Assembly: GCF_003129465.1 (NCBI RefSeq)
Contig: NZ_QFFF01000001.1
Span: 186,001-250,000, forward strand
Length of the DNA stretch: 64,000 bases
From: Sphingosinicella humi
Lineage (GTDB): Bacteria > Pseudomonadota > Alphaproteobacteria > Sphingomonadales > Sphingomonadaceae
Direction: 5' to 3'
Each line of letters opens with the position of its first letter. The stretch's first letter is position 1. The notes under the pieces are model-generated. The model had not been told where the DNA came from. It did not search any database and was given only the letters and a program-made list of their open reading frames with translations. Position numbers and translations under genes: made by a program. Positions 25,077 through 63,548 of the stretch are shown piece by piece.

Positions 25077-25154
25077 CCGTCATTGCGAGCGAAGCGACAA
25101 TCCAGCATGGCACTGGGATGGATTGCTTCGTCGCTCCGCTCCTCGCAACGACGG
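25077..25154. repeat. Palindromic repeat, CATTGCGAG family, copy 1
   Basis: Begins CGTCATTGCGAGCGAAGCGA and ends with its inverse (TCGCTCCGCTCCTCGCAACG...). The inner arms AATCCAGC and GGATTGCTTCG also pair, so the whole 78 nt can fold into one long hairpin. It lies between convergent stops and could terminate both transcripts. Related copies are at 29356 and 35551. Confidence 0.85.
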
Positions 25155-27995: not shown

Positions 27996-29327
27996 TCAGA
28001 GCGACAGCAGCCTCAGCGGATTTTCCAGCAGCTTCTTCAGATCCTGGATGAAGCTCGCCGCATCCCAGCCGTCGACGACGCGGTGGTCGCAGGAGAGCGA
28101 GAGGTTCATCATCTTGCGGATCTCGAGGTCGCCATCGACGACCACCGGCATTTCCTTGACCTTGTTGACGGCGATGATCGCGACCTCCGGGCGGTTGATG
28201 ACCGGGGTGGAGACGATGCCGCCCATCGGCCCGAGGCTGGAGATGGTGATGGTGGAACCCGAAAGCTCCTCCCGGGTCGCCTTGCCGGCGCGGGTGGCGT
28301 CGGCGAGGCGGAGGATCTCGGCGGCGAGCTGCCAGACGCTCTTGTCCTGCGCGTCGCGGATCACCGGAACGGCGAGACCGTTATCGGTCTGGGTCGCCAT
28401 GCCCATGTGGACCGCGCCCGAGCGGGTGATGATATTCGCCTCGTCGTCGTAGCGAGCGTTGATCTGCGGGTAATCGGCCAGCACGCGGCACATGCCGGTG
28501 ATGAGCAAGGGGAGCAGGGTGAGCTTGGGGCTCCCGCCGCGATCCGCGTTCATCATGGCGCGGGTCTGCTCCAGCGCCGTCACGTCGACCTCGTCGACAT
28601 AGGTGAAGTGCGGGATGTGGCGCTTGGCCGCCTGCATATTCTCGGCGATCTTGCGGCGGAGGCCGACGACTTTCACCTGCTCGTCCTGGCGGCGGGTGGC
28701 GGCGCCGGGGCGGGCGACGGCGCCGCCATTGTAGAGGAGATAGGCGTCTAGATCGGTGTGGCGGATGCGGTCCGACGTGGCTTGCACCTGGGCGAGGTCT
28801 ATGCCGAGATCACGCGCCCGCTGGCGCACGGCGGGGGAGGCGAGCACGTGCTTCTTGTTCCCGCCAACCTCGTTCGTGCCGAGCGTAGTCGAGGCGCGCT
28901 GCACCGAGTCCGAGCTGCGCCCCTCGACTACGCTCGGGACGAACGGCTTTTGGGCTTGGCGCGGTTCTTCCACGTCGGCGCTGGGGACCGCTTCTTCAAT
29001 CCCCGCAGTGACTTCAACCAGCCCATCCGCCAACGCGGCTTCTTCGCCCGTCTCCTCCGCCTCGGCCGCGGCTTCGGCAGCCTCGGCGCTGGTCTCGAAC
29101 ACCACCAGCACGGAGCCGATGGCGATCTGGTCGCCGACTTCGCCGGCCACTTCGATGACCTTGCCGGCGACAGGGCTCTCCATCTCCACGGTGGCCTTGT
29201 CGGTCATCATGTCGGCGAGCGGCTGGTCTTCCTCGACCGCGTCACCGACCTTCACGTGCCAGGCGACGACCTCGGCCTCGGCGATGCCTTCGCCGATATC
29301 GGGCAGCTTGAATTCGTAGCGCGCCAT
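27996..29327 (-). CDS. bkdB: Branched-chain 2-oxoacid dehydrogenase E2 (dihydrolipoyl acyltransferase)
   Basis: Encodes 443 residues: one lipoyl domain with MMTDKATVE (lipoyl Lys44), an acidic Ala/Glu linker, a peripheral-subunit-binding domain (VLASPAVRQRARDLGI, about 161-185) and a catalytic domain with IHMGMATQTDNGLAVPV-like core and CDHRVVDGWDAASF. It transfers acyl groups to CoA in the catabolism of valine, leucine and isoleucine. Residues about 128-152 (KPFVPSVVEGRSSD...STTLGTNE) are encoded by an in-frame palindromic repeat in the linker. E1beta lies 130 nt upstream; no E3 gene is in the window. Confidence 0.93.
   Translation of the reverse strand: MARYEFKLPDIGEGIAEAEVVAWHVKVGDAVEEDQPLADMMTDKATVEMESPVAGKVIEVAGEVGDQIAIGSVLVVFETSAEAAEAAAEAEETGEEAALADGLVEVTAGIEEAVPSADVEEPRQAQKPFVPSVVEGRSSDSVQRASTTLGTNEVGGNKKHVLASPAVRQRARDLGIDLAQVQATSDRIRHTDLDAYLLYNGGAVARPGAATRRQDEQVKVVGLRRKIAENMQAAKRHIPHFTYVDEVDVTALEQTRAMMNADRGGSPKLTLLPLLITGMCRVLADYPQINARYDDEANIITRSGAVHMGMATQTDNGLAVPVIRDAQDKSVWQLAAEILRLADATRAGKATREELSGSTITISSLGPMGGIVSTPVINRPEVAIIAVNKVKEMPVVVDGDLEIRKMMNLSLSCDHRVVDGWDAASFIQDLKKLLENPLRLLSL
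28871..28946. repeat. Palindromic repeat (GTTCGTCCCGAG family) inserted in frame in the E2 gene
   Basis: Left arm CGTTCGTGCCGAGCGTAGTC plus GAGGCGC and right arm GCGCCCCTCGACTACGCTCG plus GGACGAACGG are inverted copies with a single-base mismatch or gap. It lies wholly within the E2 coding sequence and is read without a stop or frameshift. The closest relative is at 37850-37926, inside the SDR gene. Confidence 0.9.
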
Positions 29328-29355: not shown

Positions 29356-29433
29356 CGTCATTGCGAGGAGCGGAGCGACGAAGCAATCCAGCTCGGCTCC
29401 GGACTGGATTGCTTCGCTCCGCTCGCAATGACG
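29356..29433. repeat. Palindromic repeat, CATTGCGAG family, copy 2
   Basis: CGTCATTGCGAGGAGCGGAG...CAATCCAG and CTGGATTGCTTCGCTCCGCT...CAATGACG pair along nearly the whole 78 nt. It occupies the gap between the E1beta stop and the E2 start, inside an operon, where a strong hairpin may alter RNA stability or the ratio of subunits. Confidence 0.87.
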
Positions 29434-30471: not shown

Positions 30472-31983
<1,512 letters not shown>

Positions 31984-34636: not shown

Positions 34637-34747
34637 AACCGCGCGAGTGGCGGAAATCAGCGGTTTTTGGAGAGGGCGGCGGACCAAGGCGCGAAGAGCG
34701 AGGCTACGAGTTGGCGAAATACACCAAAGGTTGGCATCACCACACTA

Positions 34748-34866
34748 ACGTCATCCCGGCGAAAGCCGGGACCCAAGAACACAGATGTTCGATACGCCAG
34801 GCGAAGAAGCCCTTCAGAACTACAGATGCCCGTGTTCTTGGGTCCCGGCGTCCGCCGGGATGACGT
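34748..34866. repeat. Palindromic repeat, CCGGCGAAAGCCGG family, copy 2
   Basis: ACGTCATCCCGGCGAAAGCC plus GGGACCCAAGAACAC and its inverse GTGTTCTTGGGTCCCGGCG...GGGATGACGT flank a central 45 nt that also contains partial symmetry. At 119 nt it could be two fused units. It lies between the psp promoter region and the next small gene. Confidence 0.85.
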
Positions 34867-34880
34867 TCCGTTTGTCGCCG

Positions 34881-35550: not shown

Positions 35551-35627
35551 CGTCATTGCGAGCGGAGCGAAGCCATCCAGGCGGCGCAGGACTGGATTGC
35601 TTCGTCGCTACACTCCTCGCGGTGACG
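35551..35627. repeat. Palindromic repeat, CATTGCGAG family, copy 3
   Basis: CGTCATTGCGAGCGGAGCGA begins it and TCGCTACACTCCTCGCGGTG with ACG ends it, with inner arms CATCCAG and CTGGATTG. It lies between two genes, 14 nt past the end of the CoA ligase gene, and probably terminates that operon. Confidence 0.82.
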
Positions 35628-35640
35628 GAGGGCCGTCCGC

Positions 35641-37239
35641 CTACCCCTCACGCAGCGCGTAGCGCTGGAGCTTTCCGGTGGCGGTCTTGGGCAGCGCCTC
35701 GGCGAACTCCACCTCGCGAGGATATTTGTAGGGGGCGATGGTGGCCTTCACATGGGCCTGGAGCTCGGCGGCGAGCGCTTCGCACGCCGCATGGCCGGGC
35801 GCACAGACGACGAACGCCTTCACCTTCTGCCCCCGCTCCTCGCAGGGGGCGCCGATGACGGCGCATTCCTGCACCGCCGGGTGCGAGAGGAGCGCATTCT
35901 CCACCTCCGGCGCGGCGATATTGTATCCGGATGAGATGATCATGTCGTCGGAGCGGGCGAGATACCAGAAATAGCCTTCTTCATCCGCGCGGTAGGTATC
36001 GCCCGTGACGTTCCAGCCATTGATCACATAGTCCGCCTGGCGCGGATCGTCGAAATAGCGGCAGCCGGTGGGACCTTTGATGGCGAGGCGCCCGGTGCCG
36101 GGAGCCGGAAGTGGCTGATCGTCGTCGCCCAGCACGCAGGCGCGATAGCCCGGAACGGCCTTGCCGGTGGCGCCGGGGCGGACATCGTCACCGGATGCGG
36201 AGATGAAGATGTGCATCATCTCGGTCGAGCCGATCCCGTCGACAATCGAGAGGCCGGTCGCTTCCTTCCAGGTGTGCCAGGTGGCGGCGGGCAGATGTTC
36301 GCCGGCGGAGACGCAGGTGTGGAGGCTGGAAATGTCGCGACCGGCGAGCTGCCCCAGTATCGCCTTGTAGGCGGTGGGCGCGGTGGCGAGGGTGGTGATC
36401 TTATGGCGATCGATCGCATCGAGGAGTGCGGCGGGGCTCGGCGCCTCGATCGTCACCGCCGTGCCGCCCGAGCGGAAGGGGAAGATGAGGAGCTGGCCCA
36501 GGCCGAAAGTGAAGGCGATCGGCGGCGACCCGGCCCAACGATCGCCGGGCTTGGGCTTCAATATGTTGGCGGCGAAAGCGTCGGCTGAGGCCAGGATGTC
36601 GCGGTGATAGTGGATGCAACCTTTGGGCTTGCCGGTGGTGCCGGAGGTGAAGGCGATGAGAGCCACGTCGTCGCGGCATGTCTCGACCGGCGCGAAGCCG
36701 GGGGCGACAACCTCCAGCCGCCGCTCCAACTCGCCGGTGCCGGCGTCGCCGTCATAGGTGAGGAGCGAGCGAACGAGACCGGTCTTTTCGGCGGCGGGCG
36801 TGTAGTCGGCGAGGCATCTTGCATCGACGATCGCATGACTGACCTGGGCACGTTCCAGCACGGTCGCGATCTCGCCGGAGCGGAGGATCGGCATGGTGGC
36901 GACGACGATGCCGCCCGCCTTGAGGATGCCGAGCCAACAGGCGAAGAGCATCGCATTGTTCGGCCCGCGCATGAAGACGCGGTTGCCGGGGACGAGCCCC
37001 TCCTCCTCGACCAGCAGGCGGGCGATGCGGTCCGAGAGCGCCCGCATCTCGCCATAGGTCCAGGTCCCGGCATCGTTGAGGACGGCGAGCGCGTCGGGGT
37101 CGTTCTTGTCGATCAGCTCGACAGCGGCGTTGAGCCGTTCCGGATAGCGAAGCTCCGGCAGGTCGAAGAGGAATTCGGGCTGCTGCTCGGGCGGCGGCAA
37201 ACGGTCGCGGACGAAAGTGTCGATATGCGCAGTCTCCAT
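35641..37239 (-). CDS. Benzoate/2-aminobenzoate-CoA ligase family acyl-CoA synthetase
   Basis: Encodes 532 residues. The AMP-binding P-loop is IAFTSGTTGKPKGC, later DGIGSTEMMHIF (adenine motif), NVTGDTYRADEEGY (ATP-binding Asp) and the C-terminal lysine in LPKTATGKLQRY. The overall form matches the benzoate/anthranilate-CoA ligase subgroup. It is probably the activating enzyme for the monooxygenase-reductase two genes upstream: aromatic acid + ATP + CoA gives the aryl-CoA. Start 37239 overlaps the SDR stop as TGATG; the frame open further upstream is a shadow of the SDR gene. Confidence 0.87.
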   Translation of the reverse strand: METAHIDTFVRDRLPPPEQQPEFLFDLPELRYPERLNAAVELIDKNDPDALAVLNDAGTWTYGEMRALSDRIARLLVEEEGLVPGNRVFMRGPNNAMLFACWLGILKAGGIVVATMPILRSGEIATVLERAQVSHAIVDARCLADYTPAAEKTGLVRSLLTYDGDAGTGELERRLEVVAPGFAPVETCRDDVALIAFTSGTTGKPKGCIHYHRDILASADAFAANILKPKPGDRWAGSPPIAFTFGLGQLLIFPFRSGGTAVTIEAPSPAALLDAIDRHKITTLATAPTAYKAILGQLAGRDISSLHTCVSAGEHLPAATWHTWKEATGLSIVDGIGSTEMMHIFISASGDDVRPGATGKAVPGYRACVLGDDDQPLPAPGTGRLAIKGPTGCRYFDDPRQADYVINGWNVTGDTYRADEEGYFWYLARSDDMIISSGYNIAAPEVENALLSHPAVQECAVIGAPCEERGQKVKAFVVCAPGHAACEALAAELQAHVKATIAPYKYPREVEFAEALPKTATGKLQRYALREG

Positions 37240-38072
37240 CACGCCTCCCCACCCGTTATCGCGATCGCCTGTCCGTTCACCGAGCGGCTTTCCGGTAGGC
37301 AGAGCCACAGCACGGTGCTCGCCACTTCCTCGGGCTGGATGAGGCGGCCCTGCGGATTGGTGGCGGTGAGCGCGGCGCGAGCCTCTTCCTCGCTGCGGCC
37401 GGTCTTCTCGCGGATATTGGCAATGGCGCCCGCGACGATGTCCGTCTCGACATAGCCGGGACAGACGGCGTTCACCGTCAGATGGGTCTTGGCGAACTCG
37501 GCCGCCATCGCGCGGGTGAGGCCGACGGCGCCATGCTTGGCCGCGACATAAGGCGCGATATAGGCGCCGCCCTTGAGGCCAGCGATCGAGCTGATGGTGA
37601 CGATGCGGGCCGAGGGCGCGGCGAGCAGGTCCGGCAGCGCCGCCTGGCAGCAATGGAGCAGCGCGTCGAGATTGACCGCCATCACTTGGCACCAGGCTTC
37701 GGGCGTGACCTTGGCAAAGGGCGAAGCGGCAGCGGTGCCGGCGTTGTTGACGAGAATGGTGATCGGACCGTTGGCGGCACGGGCGGCGGTGAAGGCTGCA
37801 TCGACTTCCTCCCGCTCGGTCACATCGGCGGGTGCAACGAGCACAGCCTCGTTCGTCCCGAGCGTAGTCGAGGGGCGTTTCTCGGAGTCGGTGCCAGCGC
37901 CCCTCGACTTCGCTCGGGACGAACGGATGTCGTTTGCGACTTCCTCCAGCGGGCCGCGGCGGCGGCCGACGAGGGTCAGCTTTGCCCCCTCCTCGGCCAA
38001 GACCCTGGCGATGGCGGCGCCGATGCCGGTGCCCCCGCCGGTGACGAGCGCGTGGTGGCCCCGGAGACGCAT
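37239..38072 (-). CDS. Short-chain dehydrogenase/reductase with an in-frame palindromic repeat
   Basis: Encodes 277 residues: Rossmann motif TGGGTGIGAAIARVLAEEG, NNAG in VNNAGTAAAS, catalytic Ser in IVTISSIAG and YxxxK in YVAAKHG, PG motif VCPGYVETD. Classical SDRs are about 250 residues; here about 25 extra residues (about 49-75, SSRAKSRGAGTD...STTLGTNE) follow the early LVGRRRGPLEEVAND helix and come from the palindromic repeat at 37850-37926. It sits between an aryl-CoA ligase and an aryl-CoA monooxygenase with 1-nt overlaps, so it probably oxidises a hydroxyacyl-CoA or ring-derived intermediate. Confidence 0.88.
   Translation of the reverse strand: MRLRGHHALVTGGGTGIGAAIARVLAEEGAKLTLVGRRRGPLEEVANDIRSSRAKSRGAGTDSEKRPSTTLGTNEAVLVAPADVTEREEVDAAFTAARAANGPITILVNNAGTAAASPFAKVTPEAWCQVMAVNLDALLHCCQAALPDLLAAPSARIVTISSIAGLKGGAYIAPYVAAKHGAVGLTRAMAAEFAKTHLTVNAVCPGYVETDIVAGAIANIREKTGRSEEEARAALTATNPQGRLIQPEEVASTVLWLCLPESRSVNGQAIAITGGEA
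37850..37926. repeat. Palindromic repeat (GTTCGTCCCGAG family) inserted in frame in the SDR gene
   Basis: CGTTCGTCCCGAGCGTAGTC plus GAGGGGCG and GCGCCCCTCGACTTCGCTCG plus GGACGAACGG form nearly perfect 28-nt inverted arms around a 20-nt loop. It is the same element as at 28871-28946. On the minus strand one arm is read in both genes as STTLGTNE. Confidence 0.92.
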
Positions 38073-40369
38073 CAGGCCTTCAATGCCGCTTCTTGCTCAC
38101 GCTGGAGATTGCGCGCGAGTTGAGCCTGGCCGCCGAGATATTGGGGCGGGACGTGGATCTTGCGATAATCCTGGGCCGCGGCGGCGCGCAGCGTCCACAT
38201 CGGGTCGATGAGGTGCGGCCGTGCGAGCGCCACCAGGTCGGCGCGGCCGGCGGCGAGGATCGAGTTGACGTGGTCGGTCTCGTAGATGTTGCCGACGGCC
38301 ATGGTCGAGACGCGGGCTTCGTTGCGGATCTGGTCGGCGAAGGGGGTCTGGAACATGCGGCCGTAGATCGGCTTGCACTCCGCCCAGGTCTGGCCGGCGG
38401 AGACGTCGATGAGGTCGGCGCCCTCCTCCCAGAAGGCGCGGGCGATCTCGACCGCTTCGTCGGGGGTGACGCCGAGGTCGCCCATCCAGTCATTGGCCGA
38501 GATGCGGACGGACATGGGTTTGTCCGAAGGCCAAACGGCGCGCATGGCTCGGAGCACTTCGAGCGGGAAACGGAGCCGGTTTTCGAGGCTGCCGCCATAT
38601 TCGTCGCTGCGCTTGTTGGTGAGCGGGGTGATGAAGCTGGAGAGGAGATAGCCGTGGGCGGCGTGGAGCTCGACCATGTCGAAGCCGCATTCCAGCCCCA
38701 TCTTCACCGCCGCTACGAACTGGTCGCGCACCGCGTCCATGTCGGCGCGCGTCATCGGGCGCGGCACCTGGTTGTCGGGGCTCCAGGGCACGTCTGAGGC
38801 GGCCATGACCGGCCAGTTGCCGCTCTCCAGCGGCACGTCATAGCCTTCCCAGCCGACCTTGGTCGAACCCTTGGGACCGCTATGGCCGAGCTGGAGGCAG
38901 AATTTAGCCCGGCCGTGGCTATGGACGAAATCGACGATCCGCTTCCACGCGGCGAGATGCTCTTGGCGATACAGGCCGGCGCAGCCGGGGGTGATGCGGC
39001 CCTCCGGCGAGACGCAGGTCATCTCGGTGTAAAGGAGCCCGGCGCCGCCCTGGGCGCGGGTGCCGTAATGGACGAGGTGGAAGTCGGTGGGCGTGCCGTC
39101 CCGCGCCGAATACATCGCCATCGGCGAGACGACGACGCGGTTCGCCAGCTCCAGCTCACGCAGCTTGTAGGGCGCGAACATGGGCGGGGCGGGATCGTTG
39201 ACCGGTGTGCCGACAGCCCGCGACTGGAACCAGCGCTCGACGCCCTCGAGCCAGGGTCTGTCACGCAGGCGCAGATTTTCGTGGCTGACGCGCTGCGAGC
39301 GGGTGAGCAGCGAATAGGCGAACTGGATCGGCTCGAAATGCAGGTAGCGGTCCAAGGTCTCGAACCATTCGGTCGAGTTCCGCGCGCTGTTCTGGAGCTT
39401 CAGAACCTCCAGGTTCCGCTCCGCCTGATATTCCTCCAGCGCCTTTTCGCGGGAAAGGCCGGGGCGGTTCAGCACCTGGGCAAGCTTGATCGCGTCCTCC
39501 AGCGCCAGCTTGGTGCCCGAGCCGATCGAGAAATGGGCGGTGTGGGCAGCGTCGCCCAGGAGGATGAGGTTCTTGTACGACCATTGGTCGCAGATGATGC
39601 GGCGGAAGTTGAGCCAGGCGTCGGGCCCCTTCAGATGCGCCGCGTTGGACATGAGGCTGTGGCCGCCGAGATAACGGGCGAAGATCTTCTCGCACAGGGC
39701 GATCGCTTCTCCCTGGTCCATCCGATCGAGGCCGAGTTTCGCCCAGGTGTTCGGGTCCATCTCGACGATGAAGGTCGAAAGGTCGTCGTCAAAGCGGTAG
39801 GCGTGGGCCCAGACCCAGCCGGCCTCGGTCTCCTCGAAGGCGAAGGTGAAGGCCTCGAACACCTGCCTGGTGCCGAACCAGAAGAACTTGTTCTTCCGCG
39901 TCTGGATGTCGACGCCGAAATGCTCGGCATGGCGGGTGCGGATGCGGCTGTTGGCGCCGTCGGCGGCGATAACGAGATCGTAGTCCTTCCAGTCGTCGAG
40001 ATCGGGGCTCGCCTCATGCTCGAAATGGAGGGTGACGCCGAGCTCGCGCGCCCGCGCCTGGAGGATGCTCAAAAGCCGCTTGCGGCCGATGCCGATGAAG
40101 CCGTGGCCCGACGAGCGGATCGTCTCGCCATGGATATGGACGTCGATATCGTCCCAATGGGCGAATTCGCTCTGGATGATCTCGCCGCTGACGGAATCGT
40201 TCGCCATCAGATTCTCGACCGTCTGGTCGGAGAAGACCACCCCCCAGCCGAAGGTGTCGTCCGGCCGGTTGCGTTCGAACAGGTCAATCTCGTGGCGCGG
40301 ATCGCGCAGCTTCATCGAGATGGCGAAATAAAGCCCGGCGGGACCCCCGCCCAGGCACGCGATCCGCAT
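38072..40369 (-). CDS. Bifunctional aryl-CoA monooxygenase/reductase (2-aminobenzoyl-CoA or salicylyl-CoA type)
   Basis: Encodes 765 residues. The N-terminal ~390 form a flavin monooxygenase ([36 protein letters not shown] with the FAD-binding GDAAH). The C-terminal ~365 form an old-yellow-enzyme-like reductase ([53 protein letters not shown]). This exact fusion is known as 2-aminobenzoyl-CoA monooxygenase/reductase (Azoarcus) and in salicylyl-CoA 5-hydroxylases. Start 40369 begins the flavoprotein; the open frame further upstream is a shadow. First gene of an operon with SDR and ligase. Confidence 0.92.
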
Positions 40370-51609: not shown

Positions 51610-52476
51610 ATGAACAAAATAATCATGACCCTGGCCGCAGTTTCGGCCCTCACCCTTGCCGGGTCCGCGACAGCGCAATACCAGCCGCGCGACGCGCGCG
51701 CCGACCGATTGCAGGCGGAAATCGACGCCGGCCTCAGGAGCGGCACCATCGCTACGGCCGATGCGCGCAATCTTCATGAGCAGCTGCGTCAGCTTCGCTA
51801 TACCGAGTATCAATATAGCCGCGACGGGCTGACCCAGACGGAGCGGCGAGACCTCCGGGATCGGACGCGCAACCTTCGCGAGCAGATACGCTACGCCGAA
51901 CAGGCGCGTTCCGGCTACGGCTATGCGCAGAACCAGTGGATCGACAGCAACCGCGACGGCTTCGACGATCGCGATTATGACCGCGACGGCCGTTGGGACG
52001 ACGACCAGCGCTACGGCAGCTCGGACCGTATCGACCGCGATCGCGACGGTTGGGACGATCGCGATTACGATCGGGACGGGCGCTGGGAAGACGATCTGCG
52101 CTATGGCAGCGCCGACCGTATCGATCGCAACCGCGACGGCTGGGACGATCGCGACCTCGACCGCGACGGACGCTGGGACGATGACGGCTACTATGGCCAG
52201 GGCGGCCCCTATTACGGCCAGGGCGGTCCCTTGGAAGAGGTGAATCAGGTCTGCCCGGACCGGTCGGGATTTTCCGGCGTCCTCGGCAGCCTCCTCGGCA
52301 TGGACAACTGCCTGAGCGTCGGCGAGCGCGTGACCGGCGGCCTCTACGCGCTGCCCCCCGAATATCAGGCGCAATTCCGTGACGGCGGTGGTTATTACTA
52401 CCGCTATCTGGACGGCAACGTCGTGCAGATCGACGCTCGCACCGGAGTGGTCGCCCACATCTACGACGTCGACTGA
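51610..52476 (+). CDS. Exported protein with tandem calcium-loop-like repeats and an RcnB-like C-terminus
   Basis: Encodes 288 residues: a signal peptide (ALTLAGSATAQ), a helical region with LRQLRYTEYQYSRDGLTQTE, then three tandem repeats of about 30 residues, each with two DxDxDGxxD motifs (DSNRDGFDD, DRDRDGWDD, DRNRDGWDD and DYDRDGRWDDD types). The tail YYYRYLDGNVVQIDARTGVV resembles the end of RcnB-like periplasmic proteins. The repeats match the DxDxDG loop used for calcium in EF-hands and dockerins, without clear flanking helices. Periplasmic metal binding is probable; no reaction can be named. ATG 51610 has GGAG about 5 nt upstream. Confidence 0.8.
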   Translation: MNKIIMTLAAVSALTLAGSATAQYQPRDARADRLQAEIDAGLRSGTIATADARNLHEQLRQLRYTEYQYSRDGLTQTERRDLRDRTRNLREQIRYAEQARSGYGYAQNQWIDSNRDGFDDRDYDRDGRWDDDQRYGSSDRIDRDRDGWDDRDYDRDGRWEDDLRYGSADRIDRNRDGWDDRDLDRDGRWDDDGYYGQGGPYYGQGGPLEEVNQVCPDRSGFSGVLGSLLGMDNCLSVGERVTGGLYALPPEYQAQFRDGGGYYYRYLDGNVVQIDARTGVVAHIYDVD

Positions 52477-63454: not shown

Positions 63455-63548
63455 GTTACCCCGGCGCGAGCCGGGGCCCAAGAACACGGGTTCATCGAAT
63501 AATCTCTTTCATCGGTGTTCCTAGGCTCCGGCTTTCGCCGGAATGACC
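63455..63548. repeat. Palindromic repeat, CCGGCGAAAGCCGG family, copy 3, between dnaK and dnaJ
   Basis: GTTACCCCGGCGCGAGCCGG plus GGCCCAAGAACAC and the inverse GTGTTCCTAGGCTCCGGCTTTCGCCGGAATGAC form arms around about 30 nt. It fills the space between the dnaK stop and dnaJ start, where it may reduce or stabilise the dnaJ part of the message. Confidence 0.8.

Follow-up and report, generated by a model that had tools for sequence, protein, structure and literature searches.

A dispersed palindromic dimer read in frame in an SDR-family oxidoreductase gene of Sphingosinicella humi, and reuse of its insertion position in the genus

One copy of a REP-like palindromic dimer, dispersed and non-autonomous and here called type A, forms an in-frame insert in an SDR-family oxidoreductase of Sphingosinicella humi. 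The element is present in many copies in the genome, and the gene that carries it is intact. In-frame coding palindromes are already described for REPs and for Rickettsia palindromic elements (RPEs), and their kind is known. The new element is the independent use of one codon position by different palindrome families, tested on a gene tree. We consider it quite probable that REP-like dimers insert widely and that selection keeps the coding copies only in frame, at a few permissive loops and linkers.

The SDR gene and its insert

In the window, the whole stretch of 64,000 nucleotides analyzed here, the SDR gene occupies positions 37239..38072 of the minus strand and encodes 277 amino acids. Its identity is supported by an intact open frame, Pfam matches to adh_short (8.7e-54) and adh_short_C2 (1.7e-49), and orthologues in the genus. 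The type A dimer with its end bases is 78 nt long (37849..37926, no strand), as delimited by own-genome matches and an inverted-repeat search. The same search placed arm 1 (28 nt, CGTTCGTCCCGAGCGTAGTCGAGGGGCG) at 37850..37877 on the plus strand, a spacer of 20 nt at 37878..37897 (no strand), and arm 2 (28 nt) at 37898..37925 on the minus strand. Arm 2 is an inverted copy of arm 1 with one mismatch, and the arms are 96% complementary. In the alignment with insert-free orthologues, the insert comprises 26 codons (37848..37925, minus strand) that encode residues 50-75, RSSRAKSRGAGTDSEKRPSTTLGTNE.

With 10 flanking nt, the insert folds with an energy 8.0 SD lower than that of dinucleotide shuffles, compared with a mean z of -0.05 and a minimum of -4.22 in 30 control windows of insert-free SDR genes. 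A hairpin of about -60 kcal/mol is predicted at the insert in the SDR message. A search of positions 37700-38100 against Rfam gave four matches, all far under the gathering scores (the best 30.4 bits against 200).

Among 38 aligned relatives, residues S161, Y174, and K178 are invariant and the glycine-motif columns nearly so; this alignment took 37 of the 80 loci from named genomes. Comparison of the window SDR with four orthologues, on 235 codons that exclude the insert, gave dN/dS values of 0.27 (L010), 0.18 (L014), 0.23 (L016), and 0.36 (L011), with dS between 0.75 and 1.06. In the structure model (mean pLDDT 92.9), a helix at residues 38-57 runs into the insert and is followed by a loop at 58-75 and a strand at 76-80. 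The confidence is low within the insert, with a mean pLDDT of 56 over residues 61-70 and values below 50 at 69-72. On this model, the insert falls in a surface loop, predicted with low confidence, that joins this helix to the strand. In the Rossmann fold, the sheet edge at this position points away from the active site. By sequence, the nearest relative with a solved structure is 9fe6; its aligned part is shorter by 22 residues, with the gaps in the insert region. Most likely the added peptide is a neutral, polar spacer.

The first-pass annotation had described a palindromic repeat inserted in frame in this SDR gene, adding about 25 residues at positions 49-75 in what might be a surface loop. 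The repeat, its frame, and the predicted loop after the helix all stand, but its extent is corrected to 26 residues at 50-75. The alternative that the gene is a decayed pseudogene, also raised there, does not hold in view of the open frame, the Pfam match, the conserved residues, and the dN/dS of 0.18-0.36.

Copies across the genome and inside other genes

The S. humi genome (G000) comprises 3.03 Mb in 4 contigs. With a 97-nt query, BLAST gave at least 80 strand matches in it, from 40 scored candidates of 73. A pattern of the arm that allowed 3 mismatches matched 126 times, against 1 match for the reversed control. The window and 60 fetched stretches hold at least 52 distinct type A dimers (53 found, one seen twice) and 17 single arms; the dimer census drew on 100 of the 126 arm matches listed, and further copies are possible. 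The dimers are uniform, with arm starts 45 nt apart in 32 of 53 and 44 nt apart in 10 of 53. The base composition around them is skewed, with C enriched on the left side and G on the right. From this dispersal we infer that the type A element is mobile.

Coding candidates were selected by a codon-usage score that required the same best frame on both flanks and an open frame, and were then searched against Pfam. At least 8 of the 52 dimers lie in Pfam-supported genes, a lower bound because the codon-score criterion would have missed the SDR copy itself. Five of the eight fall between Pfam domains. The second dimer of the window (28871..28945, no strand) lies in the linker of an E2 acyltransferase gene (27996..29327, minus strand), between the lipoyl and E3-binding domains, and a second E2 of the same genome (L041) carries a dimer in the linker between the same two domains. 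Others separate the two domains of a hydantoinase A/B (oxoprolinase-type) fusion (L053), Helicase_C and HrpB_C in an HrpB-type helicase (L062), and UPF0004 and Radical_SAM in a MiaB-type radical SAM protein (L071). The remaining three lie within a Pfam domain, in GlyS (L063), a class V aminotransferase (L076), and the SDR. Single or decayed type A arms were also seen in CarA (L074:1405-2739), UvrA (L088:1-2862), and methylmalonyl-CoA mutase (L089:1297-3594) of this genome; those in CarA and UvrA fall between Pfam domains.

The other dimers in open frames were judged non-coding; five were tested against Pfam and none was counted. L039, L051, and L059 have a Pfam match, but the insert precedes it and the start codon is unsure. 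The dimers of L057 and L083 are in spanning open frames with no Pfam match. If about 90% of the genome is coding, an assumed value, 8 of 52 is far below the random expectation (p 3e-36), the remaining 44 not each being proven intergenic; therefore most coding insertions have been lost or avoided.

Seven of the eight coding dimers read arm 2 as [RH][PA]ST-x-[LF]GTN. The same arm-2 frame occurs in 79 of 188 open frames in other copies, which gives p 0.012 for a frame picked post hoc. The first-pass annotation had viewed the repeat as a mobile palindrome tolerated in coding DNA, not a chance event, and had proposed a genome scan for CDS-embedded copies with an eye to a non-random frame. The 52 distinct dimers, 8 of them in frame within Pfam-supported genes, agree with that view. 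Its statement that one arm is read in the same frame in the SDR and the E2 was right because arm 2 gives RPSTTLGTNE in the SDR and, in the E2, RASTTLGTNE. As for a non-random frame in general, the frame is indeed shared by seven of the eight coding dimers, but the bias is weak.

Reuse of one position in SDR, GlyS, and E2

The 25 other genomes of the genus gave 19 SDR orthologues (L010-L028), of which 13 have no insert, counting L027, which falls outside the main SDR clade and may be a paralogue. The best match in G002, G005, G013, G020, G023, and G025 (L029-L034) has 35-37% identity and was treated as a paralogue; the G013 and G020 genomes are 81% and 68% complete. An insert of similar size is absent from all 50 further aligned SDR relatives. 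These are 27 loci from a family search (31 of 249 genomes with a match at an E value of 1e-50 or below) together with 23 of the 80 loci from named genomes; L182, L187, and L200 were omitted because they duplicate included rows, and G262 gave no locus. An insert ancestral to the SDR family, which the first-pass annotation had named as the other outcome against its reading, is ruled out by these insert-free orthologues and relatives.

Six of the 19 orthologues carry an insert after the same codon, plus or minus one. The inserts of L011 and L013 are type A (fold z -7.9 and -3.3). Those of L012 and L017 have no significant dyad (z -0.2 and -1.4) and, judging from their end sequences only, look like decayed type A. 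The inserts of L010 and L015 come from another palindrome family (z -8.6 and -8.1), the same one for both as judged by eye. A search of G018, the genome of L010, with the L010 insert gave 15 strand matches including the insert, and this form has no match in G000. The L015 insert has at least 69 strand matches in its own genome G010, itself included (40 of 160 candidates scored).

We placed insert presence on an SDR tree of 39 proteins, taken from 70 aligned rows with the insert columns excluded. It requires 6 changes (bootstraps 5-7), and the starred branches alone force 3. A single clade that unites the 7 bearers is rejected (AU p 6e-83), and L012 with an insert and L022 without one are sisters (support 100/98). 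L010 and L015 stand apart on the tree, requiring 2 changes. The number of gains is soft because 10 of the 36 inner branches are open, and because shuffling the labels yields a similar number of changes (mean 6.6), with 169 of 500 shuffles reaching a count no higher than the observed one. The tree shows the scatter of the bearers, not a precise count of gains. A minimum of three SDR insertions is likely, type A once or more and the other family twice. In the type A inserts of the window, L011, L012, and L013, the starting junction is the same to the nucleotide: AT precedes CCGTTCG or an altered version of it. A common origin or a sequence preference would also give this. A few additional residues stand at the insert site in L019 and L020. 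By eye, the empty SDR sites share no motif (18 of 20 rows).

Within its own genome, the window insert shares 96% identity with the L041 copy. Compared with L011, the one insert of another genome set against it, it is 83% identical (65/78), whereas the two SDR genes agree at 52% of 106 fourfold sites. The fourfold identity of the window SDR to the insert-free L014 and L016 is 0.52 and 0.49, and that to L011 is equally low. As the inserts are more alike than the fourfold sites, they must be younger than the divergence of the gene, unless they were refreshed from other copies.

GlyS was chosen as a further case because the S. humi genome has a type A dimer in this gene; 25 of 26 genus genomes have a match, and L260, the second piece of a split GlyS, was excluded. 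At the loop block, 12 of the 24 other orthologues carry 22-66 residues with a fold z of -5.6 to -11.3, L248 has 23 residues with no dyad (z 0.1), and 11 of 24 have 0-8 residues. The S. humi GlyS insert has a z of -6.7, and 36 control windows have a mean of -0.11 and a minimum of -2.80. By eye, the loop peptides are of at least 3 unrelated kinds, type A among them (S. humi and L241). The GlyS loop shows the same recurrence pattern as the SDR. Further insert positions were noticed in GlyS (L236-L259) near S. humi residues 295, 648, and 674. We take the peptides at these positions, such as IPAYAGMT and GLRRND, to be translations of REPs.

In the E2 linker, type A arms with up to 4 mismatches are found in 6 of 25 orthologues (L210, L211, L213, L215, L216, and L227); a single arm match with 3 mismatches lies further along in L231, which was not counted. 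Other linker peptides, such as GFDKLSPNG and RAPAKAGAQ, are presumably translations of other palindromes. The E2 case is weaker because E2 linkers are variable anyway.

Relation to known elements and origin of the inserts

The RAYT-type transposase domain Y1_Tnp has no match in G000, while 5 of 14 control genomes match. Mobilization by a RAYT gene of the own genome is ruled out on this result, Y1 being the only transposase family searched. Y1_Tnp is present in 11 of the 26 genus genomes. G000, G002, G011, and G025 are arm-rich without Y1_Tnp, G005, G016, and G019 have Y1_Tnp without arms, and G003, G010, and G015 have both. The 52 dimers gave no signal of target-site duplication: in 36 offset-length combinations their flank identity was never more than 2 SD above shuffles, and in five it was more than 2 SD below. 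Flank complementarity stood out at one of 60 position-shift combinations (z 3.5). A search for longer flank dyads gave no convincing signal.

Type A is a REP-like dispersed palindrome in the general sense, with many copies, inverted pairs, and 8 of 52 dimers in supported genes. The parts of Di Nocera et al. 2013 (PMC3733652) available to us describe intragenic GTAG/CGTC REPs that encode 20-30 residues as head-to-head dimers. There, a CGTC-tagged REP has an unpaired CGTC tag, a stem of 8-9 bp starting with AT, a loop of 4-5 nt, and a CCA tail; the CGTC repeats have no dedicated transposase, loops and linkers are proposed to be tolerant, and two Xanthomonas recB genes carry different REPs at about one site. 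Type A is alike in its short inverted head-to-head arms, mostly intergenic with some in genes, and in having tRNA synthetase and uvrA genes among the hosts. It differs in having no unpaired CGTC or GTAG end tag, no AT-started stem, and no CCA tail, as far as the text descriptions of that paper allow the comparison. When the type A arm folds, CGTCCC lies within its stem. No GTAG is seen by eye at the arm ends, which, with no Y1_Tnp in G000, also sets type A apart from a GTAG-tagged REP/RAYT system. A further difference is that different families here reuse a position in the SDR and GlyS of one genus, tested on a tree for the SDR.

Two other palindrome families and a tandem repeat were noticed in the window. 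One family, CGTCATCCCGGCGAAAGCCGGGACCCA-like (34747-34782 / 34832-34867, 31923-31946, 63455-63490, and 63510-63547), fits the CGTC REP description by eye. The other dispersed palindrome is CGTCATTGCGAGGAGCGGAGCGACGAAGCAATCCAG-like (25098-25153, 29356-29411, and 35551-35628). Three tandem 90-nt units, 71-81% alike, lie at 51940-52209.

In the accessible text of PMC10969869 and PMC3767692, RPEs are palindromic repeats read in frame in unrelated genes. They are described as about 100-150 bp, and solvent-exposed positions are reported for the RPE-4 kind. Type A is alike in being in frame and stop-free within eight unrelated genes, a likeness of kind. It differs in its patchy presence, since the Rickettsia japonica inserts are at the same sites in all aligned rickettsial orthologues (PMC3767692, as far as its text was available), where hotspots were kept possible. 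Prokaryotic MITEs, in the part of PMC10969869 at hand, are non-autonomous dispersed inverted repeats able to fuse to host ORFs. Type A shares the non-autonomous, dispersed, inverted-repeat form with such in-frame fusions, but has no target-site duplication signal and is not classed as a MITE; a search for a parent transposase, which covered the Y1 family, identified none. Coding palindromes are also reported in Nematomorpha mitochondria (PMC6649704, partial text). The available portion of PMC12306157 makes no mention of sphingo, intragenic, within-coding, or in-frame. We did not find the type A sequence family in the open-access papers searched, either under its arm strings or under sphingomonad palindrome and REP subjects.

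In the explanation that we favor, several palindrome families would move or be copied around these genomes with little target specificity, and most coding hits would be purged by selection. The survivors would be those that keep the frame, bring no stop, and sit in a permissive loop or linker. Survival only at permissive places would then lead to the same few protein positions being used again. We infer this selection filter from the in-frame state of the copies, their loop and linker positions, and their depletion from genes. A single ancient type A insertion in the SDR of the genus ancestor, followed by many hairpin-mediated deletions and refreshed by gene conversion, would also explain the shared junction of the window, L011, L012, and L013. 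The few extra residues in L019 and L020 could then be scars, and the R. japonica inserts shared by all aligned orthologues (PMC3767692, in the text available) offer a parallel. We regard it as improbable, since the other family in L010 and L015 at the same codon, plus or minus one, needs extra insertions anyway, a single clade of bearers is rejected, the inserts are far less diverged than the fourfold sites, and the outgroups and most orthologues have no insert.

A mobilizing enzyme might instead direct the palindrome families to a preferred DNA sequence or structure, so that selection would not act alone. The junction identical to the base in four type A bearers and the skewed flanks of the own-genome dimers point this way, but no target-site duplication signal accompanies them, flank complementarity is notable at one combination of 60, different families share the same loop, and the empty SDR sites have no common motif. 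Such targeting seems about as improbable as the ancient insertion. Adoption of the insert for a function, either as a peptide for docking or for contacts in an oligomer, or as a hairpin in the mRNA that would slow translation, would fit the one arm-2 frame of seven of the eight coding dimers, the strong predicted hairpin, and the helix that the model extends into the insert. It is very unlikely, given the post hoc frame bias, the 13 of 19 orthologues that manage without an insert, the unrelated peptides from different families at the same point, and the low model confidence in the loop. A chance palindrome or pseudogene debris has next to no probability: it is refuted by the copy number, and the fold z of -8.0, the intact gene, and the dN/dS well below 1 also speak against it.

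Insertion at permissive places followed by selection remains our preferred reading, and it bears on a question raised for R. japonica, whether coding palindromes at one site reflect common ancestry or hotspots (PMC3767692, in the text available). This genus offers a test, because different families are found at the same enzyme position in a patchy pattern on the gene tree. The SDR and GlyS loops also form a natural insertion scan in which roughly 17-65 extra residues are tolerated. Peptides such as RPSTTLGTNE and FVPSEVEG in predicted proteins should be taken as a warning that the segment is repeat-derived and not domain sequence. A bolder and rather doubtful idea is that several unrelated families, sharing a mobilizing machinery with a real target preference, independently use these loops as landing sites at one and the same codon. 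If it is true, such loops would mark natural safe harbors in essential enzymes.
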